Source: a virus. From it: DNA of 64,000 nt. Below, piece by piece: positions 1 to 26,767 of the stretch. Every line of letters starts with the position of its first letter. Within the stretch, counting starts at the first letter, position 1. The notes beneath the pieces are model-generated. The model was not told where the DNA came from. It ran no database searches and worked only from the letters and a program-made list of their open reading frames with translations. Where the stretch lies: the IMG/VR virus record IMGVR_UViG_3300019888_000003, positions 1 through 64,000 of that record. One strand, 5' to 3'. Position numbers and translations under genes: made by a program.

Positions 1-53
1 CTCGGCCCGGCTACGCAAATTCAAACACATTGCTAGAGAAAGGAATTGGCTGA
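1..53 (+). CDS. possible 3' end of an upstream gene
   Basis: The frame ending with TGA at 51-53 is open from the left edge of the window, giving about 16 residues that could be the tail of an upstream gene. A second frame stops at 34-36. Neither is long enough to identify. The TGA overlaps the ATG of the HNH gene at 53, a junction style common in this genome, which slightly favours this frame. Confidence 0.2.
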   Translation, partial: RPGYANSNTLLEKGIG

Positions 54-577
54 TGATGGGGGAGGAGCGGCTGCCTGTAGTGGGATACGAGGACCGCTAC
101 ATCGTCAGCAACTTCGGTGAAGTGTGGTCGCTCGACCATTATGACCGCCGAGGTGTGTTCCATCATGGCCAGCTGCTCAAGCTCAGTACGCATGAGTTCG
201 GGTATCCGGTGGCTAACCTCAAGCGAGACAACGTACAGAGAAGCACTCCGGTACACGTGCTTATTGCCGCAGCGTTCATTGGTCCGAGGCCGGAAGGGCA
301 CCAAGTCCGACACTTGGACGGCATCTCGCAGAACACTTACCTGATGAACTTGGACTATGGCACCCGTAAGCAAAACCAGCAGGACATGGCTCGCCACGGA
401 CGAGCGGGGAGGTATCAGGCAGCAAAGACACACTGTCCACAGGGTCACGAATACACCGAAGAGAACACGTATATCTACCACCGACCTCCACGTCGTGAAG
501 GTGGAATGTGGTCAACGGAGCGCTCTTGTAAAAAGTGCCCCAGAGAAAGGAAATTGAATCGTGGGACAATATTTTAA
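53..577 (+). CDS. HNH homing endonuclease with NUMOD4-like N-terminus
   Basis: This 174-residue protein starts with a NUMOD4-like stretch (residues about 8-27, GYEDRYIVSNFGEVWSL) used by free-standing homing nucleases for DNA recognition. An HNH core follows with His-Leu-Asp-Gly and a downstream Asn. The C-terminus carries a zinc-ribbon-like pattern (CPQGH, then CKKC). It should nick DNA at a specific site and drive its own spread. The start at ATG 53 has an AGAAAGGA ribosome site about 10 bases upstream, but the frame is open to the window edge, so a longer form cannot be excluded. The same architecture recurs in the antisense gene at 63200-63760. The next gene overlaps it by 17 bases. Confidence 0.85.
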   Translation: MMGEERLPVVGYEDRYIVSNFGEVWSLDHYDRRGVFHHGQLLKLSTHEFGYPVANLKRDNVQRSTPVHVLIAAAFIGPRPEGHQVRHLDGISQNTYLMNLDYGTRKQNQQDMARHGRAGRYQAAKTHCPQGHEYTEENTYIYHRPPRREGGMWSTERSCKKCPRERKLNRGTIF

Positions 578-5108: not shown

Positions 5109-5738
5109 GTGACCGAGGCCAAACCACAGCACGAAGTACGGCACCCTTCCGAGTTGCATGTATTCCACAAGAACCCGCGCGTGGGCAACGTGGACGCCAT
5201 CGCAGCTAGCCTTCGGGCCAACAGTCAATACCGCCCCATTGTCGTGAACAGGGGTACGCACACCGGACGTCCACTGGAGGTACTGGCGGGCAATCACACG
5301 CTGATGGCGTTTCGTGACCTGGCGGAGAAGCATCCCGAGGACGAGCGTTGGCAAAGCATCGACTGCTGGATGATCGACGTGGACGATGACCGGGCGGCGC
5401 GCATCGTGGCGGCGGATAACAGGACAGCGGAGCTTGGTGGCTTCGATGACCGCCTGCTGCTGGAGCTACTGCAAGACCTCCCCGATTTGAACGGCACCGG
5501 CTACGATGCCAACGACCTGATGGCGCTGGCGGACATCGTCGGGGGCGCGCCTACGTTGGAGGAGCTGGAAAAAGAAATCGGAGAGCCACAGCCCGGAGAC
5601 GATTACACGATGATTCGTCTTGCCGTGACGCCCGACGTGGGCAAGGAGTGGGAGCGGTGGCGCGAGCAGCACGGTAGTGACACTCAGGCGCTGGGGCTGT
5701 TGCTGGAAAGTGTCTCCTCGGACATCCTCAGTTCATGA
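5109..5738 (+). CDS. ParB-like nuclease-domain protein, possible DpdA partner
   Basis: This 209-residue protein carries a ParB/sulfiredoxin-type domain. The HPSELHVFHKNPR opening, RPIVVNRG strand and EVLAGNHTLMAF motif (residues about 57-68) match the family, as does ADNRTAELG (102-110). A GYDANDLMAL segment (131-140) and a charged C-terminal part complete it. It overlaps dpdA by four bases (ATGA). In the bacterial dpd cluster, DpdB, also a ParB-superfamily protein with ATPase activity, is needed with DpdA to insert preQ0 into DNA. I infer a similar partner role here, but the ATP-binding half of DpdB is not evident. Many phage ParB-like proteins have other roles. GTG start, with its ribosome site locked in the leader hairpin. 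Confidence 0.75.
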   Translation: MTEAKPQHEVRHPSELHVFHKNPRVGNVDAIAASLRANSQYRPIVVNRGTHTGRPLEVLAGNHTLMAFRDLAEKHPEDERWQSIDCWMIDVDDDRAARIVAADNRTAELGGFDDRLLLELLQDLPDLNGTGYDANDLMALADIVGGAPTLEELEKEIGEPQPGDDYTMIRLAVTPDVGKEWERWREQHGSDTQALGLLLESVSSDILSS

Positions 5739-6733
5739 TTCCCGCCCCCCGCAATGCTTTGGTGTCCTATCACTACTACGCGAAGGACGACCTGGAAAAG
5801 TATGCCAATCTCCGTCTGATCGGGGACTCCGGTGCCTTCTCTGCGCTGTCGCAAGGGGCCACCATTCCACTGGATGACCTGTGCGCCTGGGCTATTCGAT
5901 GGAAGCATCGTCTGGCATGGATGGCGTCTCTGGATGTGATTGGTGATCCGGTGGGCACGCGTCGAAATTGGCAGATCATGGTGGACCGCTACGGCATCCA
6001 GGCAGTGCCCACGATTCACTTTCCGCATGGTGGCAGGGAAATGGAGCACTACATCGACCAGGGTGTCGACTTCTTCGGCCTCGGTGGCTTGGTGGGAACG
6101 GGTTACGACAAGGCGAAGACCTTTCGTTGGTTGGTGTCCATTTTCCGTTATGCCCAGCAGCGACATCCGCACGTGCGCTTCCACGGCTGGGGTGTCACCT
6201 CTCAGACCCTGTTGCGGTTGCCGTTTTTCTCGGTGGACTCCAGCGCGTGGGGCAGTGGCTATCGCTATGGCATCGTTCGCATTCGCGACCCTCGAACGAA
6301 CAAGAACGTGACCGTGGCGATGGACGGCAAGGACGCCTACACGAGCGCCAAAGCACACCTGCTGGCCCGTCACTACGGTGTCGCTCCGTCGCAGATATCG
6401 CGTTCACACGGCGGGAACGCGGAGTTGATCGTGCGCATGAGCGCACTGTCGGCCAGTGTGCAGGAACAGCACTTTCGTAGTGCGCACGGTCTCATCACCT
6501 CTCCGACGTGGGGCATCAATACCACCTACGCTGCTCCGCGCGTGCACCTGGTGGGTGAGAGCAACGAGGGGGCAACGTCTCCAGTCGATGGGCCCCATCT
6601 GCATCTGGTAGATGGGTCCAAGAGCGCGCTGGAGCGGCTCAACACTCTTGCTGGTCCGCCCGGACACGTGGCAGACTCCACTTTGAGGCGTATCACGTCG
6701 ACAACTGCACAGCTTGCGCAACCTGGCTCCTGA
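5735..6733 (+). CDS. dpdA: DpdA-like DNA 7-deazaguanine transglycosylase
   Basis: This 332-residue TIM-barrel protein belongs to the tRNA-guanine transglycosylase superfamily, in the DNA-acting DpdA branch. LIGDSGAFSAL (residues 28-38) holds the first active-site Asp31, and FGLGGLVGTG (114-123) is the base-binding loop. HGWGV (150-154) and FSVDSSAW (165-172) supply the second Asp168, the likely nucleophile. The zinc-binding Cys cluster of tRNA enzymes is absent. The enzyme would swap guanine in phage DNA for a 7-deazaguanine such as preQ0. It overlaps the ParB-like gene (ATGA), and synthesis genes follow directly. The C-terminal 80 residues look poorly structured and may contact DNA or a partner. 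Confidence 0.88.
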   Translation: MIPAPRNALVSYHYYAKDDLEKYANLRLIGDSGAFSALSQGATIPLDDLCAWAIRWKHRLAWMASLDVIGDPVGTRRNWQIMVDRYGIQAVPTIHFPHGGREMEHYIDQGVDFFGLGGLVGTGYDKAKTFRWLVSIFRYAQQRHPHVRFHGWGVTSQTLLRLPFFSVDSSAWGSGYRYGIVRIRDPRTNKNVTVAMDGKDAYTSAKAHLLARHYGVAPSQISRSHGGNAELIVRMSALSASVQEQHFRSAHGLITSPTWGINTTYAAPRVHLVGESNEGATSPVDGPHLHLVDGSKSALERLNTLAGPPGHVADSTLRRITSTTAQLAQPGS

Positions 6734-6758
6734 GTCAGGAAAACCGGAAGGAAACTCC

Positions 6759-6791
6759 GTGATCATCCATTTCCTCGTCATGGGCTGTTGA
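6759..6791 (+). CDS. 10-aa leader peptide before gat-queC
   Basis: GTG 6759 has a strong GGAAGGA site (6746-6752) and encodes only ten residues (MIIHFLVMGC) before TGA 6789-6791. Seven bases later comes the ATG of gat-queC, which has no ribosome site of its own. The arrangement fits translational coupling: ribosomes ending on the leader re-start on gat-queC. It is not in frame with gat-queC. Confidence 0.4.
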   Translation: MIIHFLVMGC

Positions 6792-6798
6792 GCCCACC

Positions 6799-8157
6799 AT
6801 GTGTTCTATTACTGGCGCGATTGCGTTGGGCCCGGAGTCGGAGATCGACAGTGATCTCTACATGTCCATTCTCACGTTGGCGGGTGAAAGAGGAAGGGAC
6901 GCAGTAGGTTTCGGCACGAATCGAGGAGACGAGTATCGGTTCGTCGGACCCAAGTTCATCAACGAGGACCTCAGTGGTTCGCGCTGGGTGATCGGGAACA
7001 ATCGTGGGGAGCCCACTACCGAGTACGTACCCAATCCGACGCTGGGTGATATTCAGCCCTACCGTAGCGGTCGATTTGCTGTCGTGCACAACGGCACTAT
7101 TGCCAACGACAAGGACCTTGCGCTGGCCCAGGGGTGGAAGACCCCGCGTGTTGATTCGCAGATCATTCCGCTCATCCTCCACCGATTTTGGACGGACGAT
7201 CGTGACACCGATCAGCTTCGATCGGCGCTGGGTATGCTGCACGGTAGCTATGCACTGGCCGCAGCGAACTACGAGACCGGGACTGTGGTGCTGGCGTGCA
7301 ACTACAAGCCCATCTTCACCGCTGTCATCGACGAGGTGCTCTACTTCGCGTCCCTCCCCTCACACTTGCCGGGGCACCAGACGATCCGCTCCACAATCCA
7401 CAAGGTGGAGCCTTACAGCGCGGTTGTCGTGGGACGCGATGGGGCAGTGAAGTACGTAAACCTGCGATCTGAAGAAAAAAATATGAAGGCCCTCGTGATT
7501 CTGTCCGGAGGGCTGGATTCCACCACCGTGGCTGCGTACATGAAGAAGAAGAAGAACTACGACGTGACGCTGCTGCACGTGGAGTACCACTGTCGGGCAC
7601 AGGAGCGCGAGATCGAAGCAGTAGAAGCCATCGCCGCCACTCTCGAACTGCCGTTGATCAGGCTCAATACAGATATTTTTTCCGAAGTGATCAGGGGCAG
7701 CACGCTGACGAGTACCGAGGGCGAGATCGCTCAAGGGGAAGTGGGCAGCGAGTACGCGATGGAGTGGGTGCCTGCGCGCAATCTCATCCTGAGCGCGCTG
7801 GCGGTGGGTATCGCCGAGAGTCGGGGCATCGACACCATTGCCTTGGGCAACAACCTGGAGGAGTCCGGGGCCTATCCCGACAACGAGCAGGAGTTCATTC
7901 GGGCACTCAACTTCGTGATGCCCAACGCGGTCAACGAGGGCCAGCGGGTGGCGTTCATCGAACCGGTGGGCAACCTGATGAAACATGAGATCGTGCGCCT
8001 GGGCCTGGAGATCGCCGCTCCGCTGCATTTGACGTGGAGTTGTTACAAAGGCGGCGAGCACCATTGTGGTGACTGTGGACCCTGCTACATGCGGCGCAAG
8101 GCGTTCACGATGAACGGTGTCGAGGACGCGATGCCCTACGAGAAGGTGGCATCGTGA
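6799..8157 (+). CDS. queC: Gat-QueC fusion: glutamine amidotransferase + preQ0 synthase
   Basis: A 452-residue fusion. Residues 1-225 are a class II glutamine amidotransferase with catalytic Cys2 exposed after Met removal and the glutamine-binding HNGTIAND motif. Residues 229-452 are QueC, with the PP-loop SGGLDST at 236-242 and zinc ligands C415, C423, C426 and C429. QueC turns 7-carboxy-7-deazaguanine plus ammonia and ATP into preQ0. In coliphage 9g a Gat-QueC fusion goes with 2'-deoxyarchaeosine in DNA, so amidation of preQ0 is a reasonable inference here. The start is fixed by the need for Cys2. Its GTGA stop overlaps queD. Confidence 0.92.
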   Translation: MCSITGAIALGPESEIDSDLYMSILTLAGERGRDAVGFGTNRGDEYRFVGPKFINEDLSGSRWVIGNNRGEPTTEYVPNPTLGDIQPYRSGRFAVVHNGTIANDKDLALAQGWKTPRVDSQIIPLILHRFWTDDRDTDQLRSALGMLHGSYALAAANYETGTVVLACNYKPIFTAVIDEVLYFASLPSHLPGHQTIRSTIHKVEPYSAVVVGRDGAVKYVNLRSEEKNMKALVILSGGLDSTTVAAYMKKKKNYDVTLLHVEYHCRAQEREIEAVEAIAATLELPLIRLNTDIFSEVIRGSTLTSTEGEIAQGEVGSEYAMEWVPARNLILSALAVGIAESRGIDTIALGNNLEESGAYPDNEQEFIRALNFVMPNAVNEGQRVAFIEPVGNLMKHEIVRLGLEIAAPLHLTWSCYKGGEHHCGDCGPCYMRRKAFTMNGVEDAMPYEKVAS

Positions 8158-8591
8158 GCGACACCAAGATGGAGATCACCGTCAAGCACCACATGAGCGC
8201 GGGGCACCGCATTCCCGGACTGGCGGGTGAGGGGTCCAAGTGTTCCAACATCCACGGTCACACGTTCGGTATCTCCTGGACGTTCCGGGTCGACAGCGTG
8301 AACGCAGAAGCCATCGAGTTCGCCGAGGTGAAGAAGCGCCTGCGCGGGTGGATCAACGAGCACTTGGATCATGGTTTTATTTGCTACGCGGAGGACATCA
8401 AGACCATCAAGTTCCTCTACGCGAACAAGCACAAGCTCTACGTCGTCGACCATCCGCCGACCACCGAGATGATCGCCACGGAAATTGCGAACGCGGTACT
8501 GAGCATGGAGGGTCTTGGTGAGTATCTCGTCGCCGTGGACGTCACCGAGGGGCCGCACAACTCCGCACGGTGGAGTCGTGAGCTGTCGTGA
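8154..8591 (+). CDS. queD: QueD, 6-carboxytetrahydropterin synthase
   Basis: A 145-residue member of the PTPS/QueD family, converting 7,8-dihydroneopterin triphosphate to 6-carboxy-5,6,7,8-tetrahydropterin. Zinc ligands H18, H34 and H36 are visible (SAGHRI and NIHGHTF), with catalytic Cys30 four residues before H34. The LDHGF motif (71-75), PTTEM (102-106) and VTEGPHNSARW (130-140) complete the active site. Length is normal for the family. The GTG start overlaps the gat-queC stop and the end overlaps queE, so the three are tightly coupled. Confidence 0.92.
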   Translation: MSDTKMEITVKHHMSAGHRIPGLAGEGSKCSNIHGHTFGISWTFRVDSVNAEAIEFAEVKKRLRGWINEHLDHGFICYAEDIKTIKFLYANKHKLYVVDHPPTTEMIATEIANAVLSMEGLGEYLVAVDVTEGPHNSARWSRELS

Positions 8592-9313
8592 CGCCGACCA
8601 TCCCCGTCTCGGAGCAATTCGGAATCACGATTCAGGGTGAGGGACCGTACGCCGGTCGCTCCGTCCAGTTCCTTCGTACGGGTGGCTGCAATCTGTCGTG
8701 CTCGTGGTGCGACACCCCCTACACCTGGAACGGTGAGCTGTTCGATCTACGCAAGGAGTTGACTCCGACCACGGTCGACGACATCGTCGCGCGGACCATC
8801 CCGAATCTGCCCATCATCATCTCGGGCGGGGAACCTCTTCTGCACCAAGGGAACCCGGATTGGGAGCAGATGATGATCGGCCTGTCCGGAAAGGGCTGCG
8901 ACATTCATCTGGAGACCAACGGCACCATCGCACCCAACGGGGTCACGCAGAAGTGGGCCTCCTTCGCCAGCATTTCACCGAAGCTCGATCATGCGGGGCC
9001 TCATCGGGGCAACCAAGACCCGACGATGTCGTGGGAGTGGGTGGACTACATCGAGTCGATGACCGATGACCCCTTGGCTCGCACGTCGATCCTCAAGTTC
9101 GTCGTCACCACCGTCGAGGATGTAGACACGTCGCTTTCCTATGCCAAGAAGTACAGGTGGCCCACGGATCGAGTGTGGGTCATGCCCGAAGGGACGAGCG
9201 CGGAGGCATTACAGGCCAAGTGGCCAGCAGTAGCGAAGCGGGCTGCGGAGTTGCACATCAATGCTTCTCACAGACTCCATGTCCTCGCTTTCGGGAATAC
9301 GAAAGGGACGTGA
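8588..9313 (+). CDS. queE: QueE, 7-carboxy-7-deazaguanine synthase (radical SAM)
   Basis: A 241-residue radical SAM enzyme making the 7-deazaguanine core by ring contraction of the QueD product. The iron-sulfur motif CNLSCSWC gives C34, C38 and C41. TIQGEGPYAG (14-23) is the QueE substrate signature, and ISGGEPLL (78-85) is the SAM-binding GGEP motif. Family-typical length. GTGA overlap with queD. Confidence 0.92.
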   Translation: MTPTIPVSEQFGITIQGEGPYAGRSVQFLRTGGCNLSCSWCDTPYTWNGELFDLRKELTPTTVDDIVARTIPNLPIIISGGEPLLHQGNPDWEQMMIGLSGKGCDIHLETNGTIAPNGVTQKWASFASISPKLDHAGPHRGNQDPTMSWEWVDYIESMTDDPLARTSILKFVVTTVEDVDTSLSYAKKYRWPTDRVWVMPEGTSAEALQAKWPAVAKRAAELHINASHRLHVLAFGNTKGT

Positions 9314-9314
9314 G

Positions 9315-9884
9315 ATGACAGCTGGAATCGACCTCGATGGTGCGGCCAGTGCTATCAAGCTCCTCCTGGAAGCCTTTGGTGTGGACGAGGGCGACCACAC
9401 AGCGAACACTCCAGAACGAGTGGCACGGGCATGGTCGGAGCAACTGATCGGCTACGAGGAGGACCCCGCTGAGCATCTGCGCACCACGTTCAGCGCCCCG
9501 GACGATCCCGGCCTGGTGATCGTGTCGGGTATCCACATGAAATCCACCTGTGCTCACCACTTGTTGCCCTTCTGTGGTTCGGCGACAGTGGCCTATCGTC
9601 CCAATCCCGGTCAGCGAGTGGTGGGGCTGTCCAAGCTCTCGCGCGTGTTGCACGGCTATGCTCGTCGCCTCCAGGTTCAGGAACGCATCGGAGCAGACAC
9701 GGTGGACGCGATCCACCGGATGCTCAACCCCTCGGGTATCGCCGTGATCATCACGGCTACTCACGATTGCATGAGGTTGCGCGGCGTGGGTGATGCCGAT
9801 GCCGTCACCACTACGGTGGCCAAGCATGGTTTGTTGACCGATGATGAGTGGCACGCCATTCGACAAGCACATTTTGGGCGTTGA
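9315..9884 (+). CDS. folE: GTP cyclohydrolase I
   Basis: FolE opens GTP to 7,8-dihydroneopterin triphosphate, the first step of the preQ0 pathway. The 189-residue protein has zinc ligands C79, H82 (STCAHHLLPF) and C152 (THDCMRLRG), plus the signature GYARRLQVQERI (114-125). ATG 9315 is preferred over the in-frame ATG 9261, which lies inside queE, because AAAGGGA sits just upstream. A phage-owned FolE frees the pathway from host pterin supply. It is the last recognisable gene of the modification operon. Confidence 0.92.
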   Translation: MTAGIDLDGAASAIKLLLEAFGVDEGDHTANTPERVARAWSEQLIGYEEDPAEHLRTTFSAPDDPGLVIVSGIHMKSTCAHHLLPFCGSATVAYRPNPGQRVVGLSKLSRVLHGYARRLQVQERIGADTVDAIHRMLNPSGIAVIITATHDCMRLRGVGDADAVTTTVAKHGLLTDDEWHAIRQAHFGR

Positions 9885-9937: not shown

Positions 9938-9982
9938 ATGCGTTCCCCCCTCCGGGTGTGGATGTGCCCAGGAAGGAGCATG

Positions 9983-10387
9983 ATGAGCGAGAACGACAAG
10001 GTCGAACTCACCGAAGCGCAGTTCAAGGTCCTCTCCCTGGTGCAGTCCGGAGCGAAGCCCGAGGACATCGCGAAGACCGTGCAGTTGACCAAGGAGCAGG
10101 TGCTCGAAGAACTCGCCACCGCCCTGGCCCTCAAGCACCCAGATAGCGATTCCTTCACAGCGCTGGAGTTGCAACGATTGGACACGCTCAATCGAGCGGC
10201 CTGGACGAAAGCGGTGACGGGCGATCTCGATGCTGTGCGGGTTGCCCTGTCGGTGAGTCAGCGCAGGGTGGCGCTGAAGGATCGAGAGGCAGCGCAGTGT
10301 CGATCCCTTACTCCTGCACAAGAATTGCAGAATTCCATGGATGAGCTACTGCGCCACACGATTGCCAGTAACGTGTCCAACAGCTGA
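9983..10387 (+). CDS. helix-turn-helix protein, possible small terminase
   Basis: A 134-residue protein. Residues 8-45 form a LuxR/sigma-like helix-turn-helix (SGAKPEDIAKTVQLTKEQVLEE). The second half, with ELQRLDTLNRAAWTKAVTGD and the following ALSVSQRRVAL, resembles the helical repeat seen in many actinophage small terminase-like proteins. Such proteins recognise packaging sites and load the large terminase. Alternatively it is a transcription regulator. ATG 9983 is preferred to ATG 9980 because of spacing to GGAAGGA. The large terminase gene is 14 kb away, which weakens the terminase reading. Confidence 0.6.
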   Translation: MSENDKVELTEAQFKVLSLVQSGAKPEDIAKTVQLTKEQVLEELATALALKHPDSDSFTALELQRLDTLNRAAWTKAVTGDLDAVRVALSVSQRRVALKDREAAQCRSLTPAQELQNSMDELLRHTIASNVSNS

Positions 10388-20453: not shown

Positions 20454-20479
20454 AAACTACATTGTATAGGACAACCCCA

Positions 20480-21988
20480 ATGGGTATCGTGACGGAAAAT
20501 GGATGGCCTCAAGTTGATGCCGATCAGCTTGACAGGGGTTTGATTCCTGGGACTACCGCTGTCTGTGAAACTCTCGAAGGAGATGTCAACACAATCCTTA
20601 AGGGGTTCGCAGCCTGGTATCACAGGAACGTGGCACCGATAGATATCGGTCCAAGAGATGAGTGGAGCTGGAGTCGGACGAACGATGTCTGGAACTCCAA
20701 CCACCTCTCCGGCACCGCGATGGACATCAATTCCAGCCAGTGGCCCTGGCAGGAATACACCATGCCGCAGTGGATGATCGACAAGATTCGCGTCGGACTG
20801 GGACTGTTCGAGGGCACGGTTTTCTGGGGTCGGGACTGGGACCGTCCCGACGAGATGCACTTCCAGATTCAGGGCAACGCGGAACAGATTGCTCCGTTCG
20901 CCGCGAAGCTACAGGGTGGTTACCTCAACATCTGGGCGGCACCGGACCCCAACGACTTTCCGCTACCGCTCGGTTATTACTACGGACCGCAGGACGGTCC
21001 CGACGAGTCCGTCTCGGGTGAGTGGAGCGGCGATTCGCAAGCGGCCAAGGACGGCTTGGGTCGCTGGCAGGAGGCTCTCGGTCTTCCGGTCACGAAGAAG
21101 TGGAACGACGGTGCCACCTCGAAGGCCGCGACCCTGCTTCAGCTCGACAAGGGCTGGGCACCGCACGGTCACGTCGGATCGTGGGAATGGGACGCCGTCA
21201 TCAAGGACGGTTGGCGACTCAAGGCCCCGCTCTCCGTCATCTCGGACCCCGAGCCGGTCGTGGTCAAGTGGGGCGACTACAGCCAGTATCAGGACGCCTT
21301 CCTGGACGACTCCTACCCCTATCCGGTCATCGCCTTCCGGCTGTCCATCGGTGACACTGTGGATGAGCACGCCGTCGAACAGATGCAGAAGGCGCGCGAT
21401 GCCGTAGCGAGCGGGAAGCTCCAGAAGGTCATCGGCTATCACTTCTTCGTTCCGGGAGTCGACAACCTCGGCACGTTCACCGGGGTCATCACGCAAACAG
21501 GTGGGGTGTTCGCCGAATTGTGCGCGATGGTCGACGTCGAGGACGGCGGGGCCAAGTGGGGTATCTCCGGCGATCAGAGCGCGGAGGTCAACGAGCTGAT
21601 CTCGAAGATCAACGATTATTTCAAGAATCCACAGGCCACAGCGGGGTATCTCAACTTCAACTCCAACGCGGAGTTGTGGCAAACAAGGCCCAACGGCATC
21701 AAGCTCGTCGTTCCTGCCTACAACGGGGCCGACAACGAGCCCTACAGCCCGGACCCACTCTTCGTGCACCAATACACCGACTCCGAGGACACTCCGCCGT
21801 TCGGTCCTACCGACATGAACATCTCCAAGATGCCGCTGCACTCGTGGTTGTCGGCCTGGGGTGTCAACGAGGGAGCGCCGAGCCTGGCTCCGCGCGCCTC
21901 GGAAGCGGTGATACCCCCAGCGGTGATATCTTCGGTGTCCGTCACTGAAGACGACTTGGTTGATCTCATCGCGAGGCAATTCGATGCC
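20480..21988 (+). CDS. lysA: endolysin: M15 peptidase + PG-binding + GH25 lysozyme
   Basis: A modular lysin of about 500 residues. Residues 1-130 are an M15 metallopeptidase with zinc ligands H75 and D82 (HLSGTAMD) and H127 (EMHFQI), cutting peptide cross-bridges. Residues about 175-245 look like a peptidoglycan-binding domain. Residues about 255-475 resemble a GH25 muramidase, with GDYSQYQ near its start, MVDVEDG, AGYLNF and HQYTD. ATG 20480 is preferred to the upstream TTG 20462. The ribosome site here is poor (AGGA only), in contrast to the displaced copy at 19827. The frame stops at 21989-21991 and overlaps the next gene. Confidence 0.88.
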
Positions 21989-23354
21989 TAAGATCAGAAA
22001 CCTGAACCCTCTACCCGAGCTTCCCCGACCAATCGGTGGAACGGATCTTGCCATTCCCTTTCGGGCGTTCGGTGTCGTGGGGCTGTGCTACGGCGACAGC
22101 TTCGGAAAGAACGGCAACTCTCTCGTTCCTCAAGTGGGAGGCGATGATTGGCGCTCTCCGATTATCGTATGGACAGAGTCTTCGTCCGATCTCGGCAAGC
22201 CCATTGTCGTCACTGGTGCCGTGAGAGATGGCGCGCAGCTCTGGGATTATCCCCACGACAATGATCAATTCAGTACGGTGCTCCCTACCGATGTGATCGA
22301 GATCGACGGGTCGCTCTACATCTGGGTCATGGTCACCAAGGGACTTGGCCACGAGCAATGGTGTGAGCTGGCGCGCTCCGATGATCATGGGATCACTTGG
22401 AACAACAAAGGCATACGGTGGTCGACGTCGGATTTCGGCTCCAAGCGCGTCATGGTCACCTTCGACCGCAAGCCCGGTTCGAACATCGTGGACATCTTTT
22501 CTACGGGTGGACTCGCGAGGGACAAGGGGATGCTTCGGTGGCGTTGTCACAAGGATTCCCTCCAGGACCCCGCCGCGTGGGATGGGTGGGGTTGGGATGG
22601 TCAGACCTGGGATTGGGGTCGTCCCCCGAGCGAGATTCTGCCGGGGTGGAAGTTCGGCGAGATCGGTTTCCGCTGGATTCAAGGCAATGCTGTGCTCTCG
22701 GGGTTCGATGCCGGTAACTATTCGATTTTCGTCAAGGTCGGCGAGAGCACCGATGTCAATTGGACCAAGATCACGACATACCGTCCCATCACTGGTCTTC
22801 CGCGTGGTGTCGATACGGTGTCCCGGCTCTACGGTGGATATGTACACCCGAACTCGAAGTTCGACGGCACATTCGCGGTGATCGTCTCGGAATGGGCTTC
22901 CTCTGGTAACCCATACCGAGCCATGCAGTTTCAGGTCTTCGGCATCAAGGCCGCAGGTCCGATTGTGGAGGACATACCAAGCGTGAGTGTCGACTCGGCT
23001 GCACTATCGAACGAAGGAATTGACATGTCCGCAGAAGAAGCCCTACAGAAGATCGCTCAAGAGCTGTCGGCGTCGGGGGACGTCAAGCTCACTTTGGCAA
23101 ATGGGCGCAACGTATCTCTCCGTCAAGCGTTGGCAGAGATCCTATGGAAGTGCAACGCCCGATTGGCCGTATCTGGTGACGTCAATATCAAGCGTCCGGT
23201 GGCCGCGACCGAAGGTGATGATCAGTTCGGTCATGTGTTGTCTGCGCGCGGAGAACTGAATATCTTGATTGCGTTGCAACGCAAAGCATCCGAGCTGGGT
23301 CGACTTCTCACCGTCGCTGAACACGACGCCGTCGTCACGGCGATGACGAAATGA
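21984..23354 (+). CDS. DUF4185 protein, putative D-arabinan hydrolase (lysis/host wall)
   Basis: A 456-residue protein. Residues about 20-340 match DUF4185, a five-bladed propeller glycosidase-like domain: GLCYGDSF, DDWRSPIIVW, VLPTDVIEIDGSLYIWVM, ARSDDHGITW. Members of this family have been shown to be endo-D-arabinanases acting on mycobacterial arabinogalactan, so cutting the host wall polymer is the likely role. The C-terminal 110 residues are helical and preceded by their own ribosome site and ATG. It sits between endolysin and holin, with ATGA-type overlaps on both sides. Confidence 0.8.
   Translation: MPKIRNLNPLPELPRPIGGTDLAIPFRAFGVVGLCYGDSFGKNGNSLVPQVGGDDWRSPIIVWTESSSDLGKPIVVTGAVRDGAQLWDYPHDNDQFSTVLPTDVIEIDGSLYIWVMVTKGLGHEQWCELARSDDHGITWNNKGIRWSTSDFGSKRVMVTFDRKPGSNIVDIFSTGGLARDKGMLRWRCHKDSLQDPAAWDGWGWDGQTWDWGRPPSEILPGWKFGEIGFRWIQGNAVLSGFDAGNYSIFVKVGESTDVNWTKITTYRPITGLPRGVDTVSRLYGGYVHPNSKFDGTFAVIVSEWASSGNPYRAMQFQVFGIKAAGPIVEDIPSVSVDSAALSNEGIDMSAEEALQKIAQELSASGDVKLTLANGRNVSLRQALAEILWKCNARLAVSGDVNIKRPVAATEGDDQFGHVLSARGELNILIALQRKASELGRLLTVAEHDAVVTAMTK
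23025..23354 (+). CDS. possible internal translation product of the DUF4185 gene
   Basis: Inside the DUF4185 gene, GAAGGA (23013-23018) lies six bases before the in-frame ATG 23025. This would yield a separate 109-residue helical protein identical to the C-terminal domain. Several Gram-positive phage lysins make extra copies of their wall-binding domain in this way. No direct proof is visible in the sequence. Confidence 0.35.
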   Translation: MSAEEALQKIAQELSASGDVKLTLANGRNVSLRQALAEILWKCNARLAVSGDVNIKRPVAATEGDDQFGHVLSARGELNILIALQRKASELGRLLTVAEHDAVVTAMTK

Positions 23355-23899: not shown

Positions 23900-26767
23900 A
23901 TGCGTGCCAATGGCCAGAAGGATCTGCTGACTGACCTGAAATTCGACCCTGTGCAGGCGTTTCGGAGTGGTTTGGACCCGAAACCCCAGTGGGATTCGAT
24001 CATTGAGTTCGCTACGCACCGATCTTTCTGTGGTCTGCGGCTCTATCCCCGGCAGATCACGCTGCTGCGTCTGATTTACCTCGAAACCGAGACGATGACG
24101 GCCTACGACCTCGACGTGATCGAGCAATGGCGAGAGGGTTTCCTGAATCACGACTCTCCCGAGGGCGTGCAGACCGACATCTGGGACCGGATTCAGTACC
24201 TCAAGGAGCGCGGATACCGGCATTTCCCGCATATCGAGGCGATTATCGGGCGACGTGGGTCCAAGGGCAAGATCGGGGGCGTTCTCGGTGCTGAAAAGAT
24301 GGCATATCTCTACAGTCTGGACGATTGGCAGAGCCATTACGGAGTGAGCCCCGGCAAGGACGGTTTCCTGTCGGTGGTGGCGGTCAACTCCATCCAGGCC
24401 AAGAAGTTTCAGTTCGCGGATATTCGCGAAACGGTCGAGAACTGCAAATATCTTCAGTCCGCCATTGCCACATCGAACGGCTACGAGGTGGCCTTGCGCA
24501 CGCCTGCTGATCTGAGGCGAATCGCGTACTTGCACAAGAACAAAATCCCTATCGAGCACCAAATTGCTTCGCTGCACGCGACGGCGATGTCGTCGAACTC
24601 CGCCTCCGGTCGTGGTGCGACGGGATTTGCGAACATCTACGACGAGTTCGCCCACATGATCACCAACACCGGAAGCCAGCGGTCGAGCGAGGAAATCTAC
24701 GAGGCCTATCAGCCCTCCCTCGACCAGTTCGGCAAGGACTCGCTGACTTACATCCCTTCTTCGCCCTTCTGTCTCAGTCCGGAAACTCCGGTGCTTACCG
24801 ACGATCTGCGCTGGGTACCAGTTGGATCGTTGCAGGTGGGAGACAAGCTGGTCGGCTTCGACGAAGACGCACCAAGCCGAGGTGTAGGCCGACGATGGCA
24901 GCAGGCAGAGGTCACCGAAACCTCGGTGATTCGCGCACCCCGCTACACGATCACGATGTCGAGCGGGCGGCAGATCACCTCGACCAGCGAGCATCGCTGG
25001 CTTACGTCGTGGGCATCGCAGAAGTCGCGCTGGGATTGGCGTAAGACCTCCGAGCTAAAGCCAGGCGACCGCATCAAGTCGATTGGTGTCGATCCGTGGG
25101 GCACCGACAACACCCGAGAGGGCGGCTACCTCGCTGGCATTTTCGACGGCGAGGGGCACCTGTCCGGTCAGGTCGGACGCAACATGACGCTGGGCTTCAC
25201 GCAGAATCGCGGACCAGTGCGAGAGCGCGTCTACGACCTGTTAACCGAGCGCGGCTACAAGGTGCAGGACTACACAGGCGAGTCGTCGCGCATCAGCAAA
25301 ATGCGAATCGGCGGCTCCGTAGGCGACGTGATGCGCTTCCTCGGCTCGGTTCGCCCCGAGCGTTTGCTGCCGAAGTTCGGCGACATGTTCTATGGCTCGC
25401 GCATCTACGGACCAGCCAGTCAGGCAGTCGAGACTGTGGTTTCCGTCGAATACAAGGACGAGGGCGACGTGATTGCACTCGGTACCTCGACGGCCACTCT
25501 GGTAGCCGATGGCTTGCTCAGCCATAACACTCAGGTCGGACATTTCTTTTCCCTCTACAAGGAGGGGAAGGTGCTGATGAGCACCTTCGACAAGGAGACC
25601 GGAGAGACGCGGCTGGAGGAGAAGACCGCCAGGGAGCTAGGGCACAGTGACGGGGATGCGGAGCGCAAGGTCGTTGAACTTGCTGCCAACCCCGAGATGC
25701 TGGTTGTTCAGTTGCCGAGTTGGGGGCTCTACGAGGATTGGCGCAAGTCGCCCACACTTGGTGGGCCTCTGTTCAAGCGCCCCATTCAGGCCTACGACGA
25801 GCGCATGATGCGGCTTGAGCGCAGCAACCCGCAGAAGTTCAACGTCGAGCGTCGCAGTCAGTTCGCTTCCGTGGTCGATGCGTTCATGGACCCGCGCAAG
25901 GTCGAGGCGATGTTCGATCCGGTGCCCTGGCGAGAGAAGCTGGTTCCCCAAGATCGCGGACGTGTCGACCGTCGCTACTACGTTCACATCGACCCTGGTC
26001 TCACCAACGCCAACTTCGCGCTGGCCATCGCTCACTTGGAGTACGCGCCCGTCGACGATTACGGCGACGTGTGGCCACACGTCATTATCGACTTCCTCAA
26101 AGTGTGGAAGCCTGGGGACTACGAGGACCACACCATCGACTACGTTCAGGTGCAGCGCGAGGTCGCTGCGACTCTGCGTAAGTTCCCCTCCACTCACATT
26201 TTCTCCGCAGACCAGTGGAACAGCGCCGGAATGCTGGCGGCGCTACGCGAGGAGTTCGGTGCGTCTATCCAGATCAAGGAAGAGACGTTCACCGACATCT
26301 ACAACCAGGAGCGCATGGACCGCATGAAGTCGGCCATCAACCTGGGTTGGGTGCACAGCTACCGCGACAACTTCTACGGTGACGGTGATTGCCTGTTGGA
26401 GTTGGAAATGAAGTTTCTTCAGAAAAAGGGCAAGAAGGTCGACAAGCAAGAGTTCGGGCCTGTGACGACCAAAGACCTCTTCGACGCGGTGAACGTCGTA
26501 ACAGATCGAATGCTCAAGGACGACTTGGACCGCTGGCAGGCGAAGATGCTGGGCACTGTATCGACGGCCATCGGCAGTTCCAACGTCGCCGGGATTCGCA
26601 GTGGGCGGGATCTGGATCGGCTCAATGCACTCAAGTCCGGGGCTCGAAGACTGCAAGGTCCTATGACTGCTCGGGAGAAGCTGCGTGAACAGACTCGGCA
26701 GCGCTCCACCACACACGGCATCGGCGTAGGAGGGGGCACGTCGCGCCTGCGGGGGATCAGGGGGTAG
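23900..26767 (+). CDS. terL: terminase large subunit with intein
   Basis: A 955-codon gene. The extein (702 residues) is a packaging ATPase-nuclease. GRRGSKGKIGG (117-127) is the Walker A-like motif, NIYDEFAHM (about 244-252) is Walker B, and SSP around 286 is the coupling motif. The nuclease Asp residues lie in YVHIDPGLTN, IFSADQWNSAG and KDLFDAVNVV. An intein interrupts it at residues 291-543, within the ATPase core. There is no ribosome site; TAGTCT lies six bases before ATG 23900, suggesting a leaderless transcript. The neighbour upstream is the holin gene. Confidence 0.9.
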   Translation: MRANGQKDLLTDLKFDPVQAFRSGLDPKPQWDSIIEFATHRSFCGLRLYPRQITLLRLIYLETETMTAYDLDVIEQWREGFLNHDSPEGVQTDIWDRIQYLKERGYRHFPHIEAIIGRRGSKGKIGGVLGAEKMAYLYSLDDWQSHYGVSPGKDGFLSVVAVNSIQAKKFQFADIRETVENCKYLQSAIATSNGYEVALRTPADLRRIAYLHKNKIPIEHQIASLHATAMSSNSASGRGATGFANIYDEFAHMITNTGSQRSSEEIYEAYQPSLDQFGKDSLTYIPSSPFCLSPETPVLTDDLRWVPVGSLQVGDKLVGFDEDAPSRGVGRRWQQAEVTETSVIRAPRYTITMSSGRQITSTSEHRWLTSWASQKSRWDWRKTSELKPGDRIKSIGVDPWGTDNTREGGYLAGIFDGEGHLSGQVGRNMTLGFTQNRGPVRERVYDLLTERGYKVQDYTGESSRISKMRIGGSVGDVMRFLGSVRPERLLPKFGDMFYGSRIYGPASQAVETVVSVEYKDEGDVIALGTSTATLVADGLLSHNTQVGHFFSLYKEGKVLMSTFDKETGETRLEEKTARELGHSDGDAERKVVELAANPEMLVVQLPSWGLYEDWRKSPTLGGPLFKRPIQAYDERMMRLERSNPQKFNVERRSQFASVVDAFMDPRKVEAMFDPVPWREKLVPQDRGRVDRRYYVHIDPGLTNANFALAIAHLEYAPVDDYGDVWPHVIIDFLKVWKPGDYEDHTIDYVQVQREVAATLRKFPSTHIFSADQWNSAGMLAALREEFGASIQIKEETFTDIYNQERMDRMKSAINLGWVHSYRDNFYGDGDCLLELEMKFLQKKGKKVDKQEFGPVTTKDLFDAVNVVTDRMLKDDLDRWQAKMLGTVSTAIGSSNVAGIRSGRDLDRLNALKSGARRLQGPMTAREKLREQTRQRSTTHGIGVGGGTSRLRGIRG
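24770..25528 (+). mobile_element. intein with LAGLIDADG endonuclease in terL
   Basis: The 253-residue intein begins at Cys291 (CLSPETPV, block A) and ends with His542-Asn543 before Thr544, the features of a class 1 intein. TSEHRW supplies the block B His. YLAGIFDGEGHLSG is a LAGLIDADG homing motif about 120 residues in. The insertion site is the conserved C-motif of the terminase ATPase. The intein must splice out for packaging to work. Confidence 0.92.

Follow-up and report, generated by a model that had tools for sequence, protein, structure and literature searches.

A ParB-like gene linked to DpdA in a predicted 7-deazaguanine DNA-modification operon of an actinobacterial phage

The IMG/VR virus record IMGVR_UViG_3300019888_000003 carries, at positions 5109 to 9884 of its first 64,000 bases (the stretch analyzed here, hereafter the window), a run of six linked genes on the plus strand that encode a ParB-like protein, a DpdA-type DNA guanine transglycosylase, the fusion protein Gat-QueC, QueD, QueE, and FolE. 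Together they very probably make a modified guanine that replaces guanine in the viral DNA and shields it from enzymes of the host. The best explanation, which we regard as probable, is that the operon serves to synthesize a 7-deazaguanine, most likely archaeosine (dG+), and to place it in phage DNA, with the ParB-like protein as an accessory of DpdA. Genome comparison reveals two DpdA clades, one preceded by ParB nearly always and the other never, and a single genomic site at which the enzyme has been swapped; the helper role is therefore now directly testable. Moreover, the replacement of a single gene leads to a prediction of dG+ for this actinobacterial phage, while its nearest relative has a cassette of the deoxy-preQ0 (dPreQ0) type.

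The cassette is ordinary in kind and informative in detail. Base-modification operons of phages have been surveyed by computation before, and those surveys may mention ParB as well. The phage ParB–DpdA link itself was already proposed in 2019, when the authors of the CRB2 study suggested the gene-1 ParB of this mycobacteriophage as a dpdB homologue (PMC6392294). ParB-like genes have repeatedly been noted beside phage DNA-modification genes, among them the CmoX cytosine-modification system, and their precise role was called unknown (PMC12783734). In Tonitrus, ParB lies beside a TET-type thymidine system (PMC11955845), and the cassette of Rhodococcus phage Finch has been aligned with that of mycobacteriophage Rosebush (PMC13313380). 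As far as these tools show, what is new here is the contrast between the clades, the swap at site level, the analysis of the ParB tail, and the prediction of dG+ for this type of cassette.

By sequence, the virus is an actinobacteriophage of the Finch/Stormageddon type. Its nearest known relatives are the Rhodococcus phages Finch and E3 and the Gordonia phages Stormageddon and RedWattleHog, and its capsid has relatives in large mycobacteriophages such as Napoleon13 and Bonray. The whole record is 78,343 bases long and probably incomplete, since the Finch and Stormageddon genomes measure 136–139 kb.

Linkage of the ParB-like gene to one DpdA clade

The ParB-like gene (5109..5738, +; 209 amino acids, GTG start; PHROG ParB, 2e-52) overlaps the DpdA gene (5735..6733, +; 332 amino acids, actinophage clade; PHROG 7068, 2e-120) by four bases. 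For the comparison, viral contigs were fetched by DpdA or Gat-QueC queries and not by ParB, which was then scored with a profile of 26 diverse rows, some of them from the DpdA-linked loci themselves. In the non-redundant set of loci with 500 bases or more upstream, ParB was found within 1.5 kb upstream of DpdA in 34 of 37 loci of the window's DpdA clade and in 0 of 23 of the clade of Enterobacteria phage 9g (Fisher p 1e-13, which is only a guide, as the test ignores relatedness among viruses); before dereplication the counts were 40/43 and 0/54. In most of the 34 loci the matched regions of ParB and DpdA lie at most 50 bases apart, like the 4-base overlap in the window. The contrast was already plain with a first ParB profile built from phage isolates, which missed ParB in about 10 loci, most of them regained by the broader one. 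The linkage is kept whether the locus has short QueC, Gat-QueC, or no QueC. The suggestion, made earlier in a sequence-only reading of this DNA, that the ParB-like protein is a partner of DpdA thus corresponds to a real, non-accidental association. At L019:4303-6047, L192:4129-6008, and L194:4498-6008, a tandem pair of DpdA-like genes stands behind ParB.

It is improbable that the ParB-like gene is a mere neighbour, that is, a regulator or a packaging or segregation gene lying upstream by chance. Such a role is suggested by its position as gene 1 near the terminase in many phages, by the cluster B mycobacteriophages, in which the cassette and ParB lie beside the terminase, and by the label "transcriptional regulator" in older annotations. 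In the window, however, the terminase (23900-26767) is about 14 kb away and ParB stays with DpdA, so that for this genome the idea that ParB simply tracks the terminase was rejected. ParB is also absent from 9g-type cassettes, and its relatives are fused to methyltransferases. Moreover, the parS-binding helix-turn-helix (HTH) domain and the C-terminal dimer domain of segregation ParB are absent: 209 amino acids leave no room for them, the matches cover the N domain, and the match to ParB in the PDB ends near profile position 115.

The sequence-only reading had gone further and called the protein a phage version of DpdB, a membership that the comparison leaves unsupported. The DpdB model NF041060 had no match anywhere in the 78-kb, probably incomplete record, and an hhalign comparison with bacterial DpdB (two rows, both from proteins encoded on either side of a bacterial DpdA) was not significant (probability 0.1%, E 0.41), its sole short alignment pairing DGQQR of DpdB with AGNHT of the window protein. 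A shared superfamily is plausible. That the protein is a true phage DpdB, the ATPase required by DpdA as in bacterial Dpd systems, is a minority proposal with roughly one chance in eight. The common superfamily, that short alignment, and the neighbourhood speak for it, a TGT-related DpdA (TGT, tRNA-guanine transglycosylase) adjoining a ParB-superfamily protein in both systems; so do the CRB2 proposal and an actinobacterial genome in which DpdB genes directly flank DpdA on both sides. On the other hand, DpdB is a DGQQR protein of 350–400 amino acids, of which the window protein reaches little more than half the length, and the best PDB matches of the latter are ParB and Noc. In addition, its relatives serve other enzymes; because members of the same family stand before, or are fused to, DNA-modifying enzymes of unrelated kinds, the protein would not be specific to DpdA. 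Dpd restriction genes were not seen in the record, in which only DpdB and DpdC were searched. The two DpdB genes around the single DpdA of the actinobacterial genome (L212:1315-3866, L208:218-2598) differ from each other.

Fold and partners of the ParB-like protein

Sequence and predicted fold place the protein in the ParB/sulfiredoxin superfamily, with a ParB-type N domain at about residues 1–140 and a tail at about 141–209 that is common mainly to DpdA-linked relatives. Searched against the PDB, the 26-row profile retrieved the N domains of ParB, Noc, and Spo0J (E 2e-10), and PF02195 matched 16 of the 26 relatives, although not the window protein alone. Pfam and NCBIfam did not call ParB or DpdA for the window proteins themselves, for which PHROGs and profiles were required, and phmmer searches of the PDB with the single ParB or the single DpdA returned nothing useful. 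The AlphaFold2 model of the ParB-like protein (predicted local distance difference test, pLDDT, 93) has its best Foldseek match in 7bm8 (E 3e-6); the matches comprise ParB structures with cytidine tri- or diphosphate (CTP/CDP), 7bm8 and 6sdk among them, as well as PadC and, more weakly, sulfiredoxin. The protein departs from segregation ParB in box II, where GERR (GERRxRA) is replaced by GNHT (AGNHT), while the Asn of box III (Asn104) is kept and invariant.

A search with ParB as query retrieved relatives that have no DpdA nearby. In 11 of 34 of these, the next gene encodes a Tet/JBP oxygenase; others are followed by genes for PAPS (3'-phosphoadenosine-5'-phosphosulfate) reductases (4), ATPase–acetyltransferase fusions (about 5), TET-associated glycosyltransferases, methylases, and one P-loop nucleotide kinase. 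Of eight long ParB proteins, seven carry a fused N6/N4 methyltransferase. The same ParB N domain recurs in these fusions and in the ParB–TET/JBP cassettes (Stormageddon gene 207, cluster B3 mycobacteriophages, and Tonitrus, the last by published description only), but the enzyme is an N6/N4 methyltransferase or a 2-oxoglutarate-dependent oxygenase. A change of enzyme can be followed at a single syntenic position. Here the window and Finch have ParB and deazaguanine genes, whereas in Stormageddon the same ParB domain, with 56% identity to the window's, is joined to a methyltransferase; behind it come the same HTH gene and, at a greater distance, the same virion protein (about 1,150 residues).

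The tail was matched only in other phage ParB-like proteins. Tail profiles built from half of the DpdA-linked set matched 13–17 of 17 held-out DpdA-linked tails, compared with 5–8 of 48 others. The ParB-like protein is best read as an accessory subunit for DNA modification in general, its tail partly specific to the partner, which in this operon is DpdA. A bolder view, to which we give about one chance in three, is that members of the family act quite generally as exchangeable accessory subunits of DNA-modifying enzymes in phages of actinobacteria, perhaps as a nucleotide-gated module for DNA loading or site choice. The N domain would handle DNA and the tail would pick the enzyme (DpdA, TET/JBP oxygenase, methyltransferase, or acetyltransferase), one DpdA clade having come to depend on it, unlike the 9g clade. 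If so, phages would alter the chemistry of their DNA by exchanging the enzyme while the ParB in front of it is retained.

Apart from the relatedness that the Fisher test ignores, several points weigh against the preferred explanation. The DpdA of 9g needs no ParB (PMC6884629); ParB is therefore not needed by the chemistry as such, and any dependence on it would be a property of the window's DpdA clade. The tail is also present in some ParB proteins that do not accompany DpdA. Use of CTP by the window protein is doubtful because of the change in box II. For DpdA, finally, the AlphaFold2 model (pLDDT 82) gave only generic TIM-barrel matches in Foldseek, and not TGT.

Two further observations concern the partner genes. 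Gene 2 of cluster B3 mycobacteriophages (L010:785-1753 and relatives, alignment A11) is annotated as queuine tRNA-ribosyltransferase (PHROG 6059, RefSeq), probably a misannotation; it has an HxD...H...R motif, TET/JBP matches in Pfam, and a match to a Tet-like dioxygenase in the PDB (E 0.005). Behind ParB at L007:603-2452, L023:878-1978, and L042:6568-7755 lies a fusion of an ATPase (ABC/AAA) with a GNAT acetyltransferase, followed in Gordonia phage Axumite by a formyltransferase-like gene; these loci are a possible undescribed DNA-modification cassette.

Pathway enzymes and the predicted base

The genes behind DpdA encode Gat-QueC (6799..8157, +; 452 amino acids), in which a class II glutamine amidotransferase domain with Cys2 is fused to QueC (GATase_6/7 and QueC Pfam matches; QueC 3e-55), the 6-carboxytetrahydropterin synthase QueD (8154..8591, +; PF01242, 1e-16; PHROG 2389, 6e-36), the radical SAM 7-carboxy-7-deazaguanine synthase QueE (8588..9313, +; PHROG 2076, 6e-64; radical SAM, 7e-10; CX3CX2C), and the GTP cyclohydrolase I FolE, the first step (9315..9884, +; PF01227, 5e-51). 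All six genes of the run named from the sequence were recovered in position and strand with family scores far above chance, and their active-site residues are intact by alignment, as had been proposed. They include SGGLDS and the zinc ligands Cys415/423/426/429 of QueC, CX3CX2C of QueE, the C/H ligands of QueD, the CAHH...HDC motif of FolE, and, in the amidotransferase domain, Cys2, Arg69, Asn98-Gly99, and Asp119, with the MCSI start and HNG conserved in mycobacteriophage StAugustine and in 9g. DpdA retains DSG (Asp31) and Asp168 at the position of the nucleophile, and DSG and the second Asp are invariant in a 25-row alignment. The active-site roles given to these residues are those of their families.

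The operon encodes the complete set for 7-cyano-7-deazaguanine (preQ0), namely FolE, QueD, QueE, and QueC. By analogy with tested homologues, FolE, QueD, and QueE would convert guanosine triphosphate (GTP) to 7-carboxy-7-deazaguanine and the QueC half of Gat-QueC would make preQ0. The Gat half would then take ammonia from glutamine to turn the nitrile into the amidine of G+, before or after insertion, and DpdA would exchange guanine in DNA for the modified base. The ParB-like protein may act as a DNA-bound accessory subunit that loads, targets, or regulates DpdA; it may touch DpdA physically, use a nucleotide, and affect the enzyme, and its tail is probably the docking part that fits DpdA. The host pathway is missing from mycobacteria, and TGT is all that Rhodococcus erythropolis has of it (PMC6884629), so that a phage of hosts without a preQ0 pathway would need the whole gene set. 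QueF, a YhhQ-type transporter, and PF03883 (DpdC) had no match in the 78-kb, probably incomplete record, which agrees with the initial impression that neither QueF nor DpdC was visible. In the Mycobacterium phages Hilltopfarm and Typha (L008, L015), the order is ParB–DpdA–QueD–QueE–FolE and QueC is replaced by an unknown gene; these cassettes may insert a base that precedes preQ0, such as the carboxy form.

The window DpdA is 60% identical to that of Finch and 27.5% identical to that of 9g (tblastn E 3e-8); the hhalign match of phage to bacterial DpdA is weak, and a plasmid search found only distant DpdA, from Paenibacillus and Rossellomorea. An action on phage or host tRNA instead of DNA, as the PHROGs label of queuine tRNA-ribosyltransferase would have it, is highly improbable: the enzyme is homologous to the DpdA of 9g and CAjan, shown to act on DNA, and is of the same type as that of Rosebush, whose DNA is modified.

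Rosebush (cluster B2), represented by Eaglehorse (filed as Rosebushvirus rosebush), shares with the window the order ParB–DpdA–QueC–QueD–QueE–FolE with overlaps, the DpdA clade, and the ParB family. Its QueC, however, has 235 amino acids and no Gat domain, against 452 in the window, and dPreQ0 was measured at about 28% of G in its DNA (PMC6884629). Finch belongs to the same genome family and has its cassette (genes 210-215) at the syntenic site; it is the nearest relative for ParB (67% identity), DpdA (60%), QueD (58%), QueE (68%), and FolE (73%). Its short-type QueC, in contrast, is only 33% identical, and its cassette was predicted to be Rosebush-like (PMC13313380). The window QueC is nearest to the Gat-QueC of StAugustine (52% over the full length). 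Because five genes are nearest to Finch while QueC is nearest to StAugustine, Gat-QueC seems to have taken the place of a single gene in a cassette of the Rosebush/Finch type. Short QueC without the amidotransferase domain occurs, in the same gene order as in the window, in Finch, Rosebush-type phages, Saguaro, and PenguinLover67. A tree of 79 QueC domains separates Gat-QueC from short QueC on a branch whose Shimodaira–Hasegawa-like approximate likelihood ratio test (SH-aLRT) value is 99; the Gat state changes once, and the window and StAugustine fall in the Gat half. StAugustine (genes 2-9) is the closest precedent, with the same DpdA clade, ParB, and Gat-QueC, and differs in a DnaQ-like gene between ParB and DpdA and an extra small gene before FolE; a literature search found no paper on it. 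Phage 9g (Nonagvirus) has Gat-QueC of the same clade, QueD, QueE, FolE, and DpdA, but its DpdA is of the other clade, its gene order is different, and ParB is lacking.

In E. coli, 9g DpdA with Gat-QueC yielded dG+ at 9–18% of G in plasmids (PMC6884629). As this Gat-QueC gives dG+, whereas Rosebush, with dPreQ0, and Finch lack the Gat domain, dG+ is the most likely base by analogy, ahead of dPreQ0. The earlier proposal of "dPreQ0 or dG+" is supported as to a 7-deazaguanine DNA-modification operon with Gat-QueC and is narrowed to dG+ by the Gat domain. A working operon whose product is dPreQ0, as in Rosebush, or a mixture is unlikely, though of all the alternatives the one to be taken most seriously; this DpdA clade might prefer preQ0, or the Gat half might be weak. 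Five of the six genes have their nearest counterparts in the Finch/Rosebush type, Rosebush makes dPreQ0, and in 9g G+ may arise either before or after insertion (PMC6884629). Against this, the Gat catalytic residues are intact, the whole gene falls in the Gat-QueC clade, and the pairing of this DpdA clade with Gat-QueC is not unique to the window, being retained in StAugustine and, as weaker relatives, in several environmental viruses.

Operon layout and neighbouring genes

That most of the genes are joined by 4-base overlaps is just right, since this holds at three of the five junctions (ParB/DpdA, QueC/QueD, and QueD/QueE); QueE and FolE are separated by a 1-base gap and DpdA and Gat-QueC by 65 bases. 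The open reading frame of FolE reaches back to 9261, but the alignment with relatives begins at the ATG at 9315. An HTH-type gene lies 3' of the cassette (9938..10387, +), in the same place as in Finch (gene 217) and Stormageddon (gene 208); it marks the syntenic site and is probably not part of the pathway.

Elsewhere in the window, a gene resembling HNH/NUMOD4 homing endonucleases is found at 53-577 (+), and two adjoining genes with endolysin-type matches at 20462-23354 (+). The large terminase subunit (23900-26767, +; 955 amino acids) contains an insert of about 251 residues (about 293–543) that the Finch terminase does not have. The insert is an intein, with Cys at its start, HN at its end before Thr, and a weak match to PF14890.

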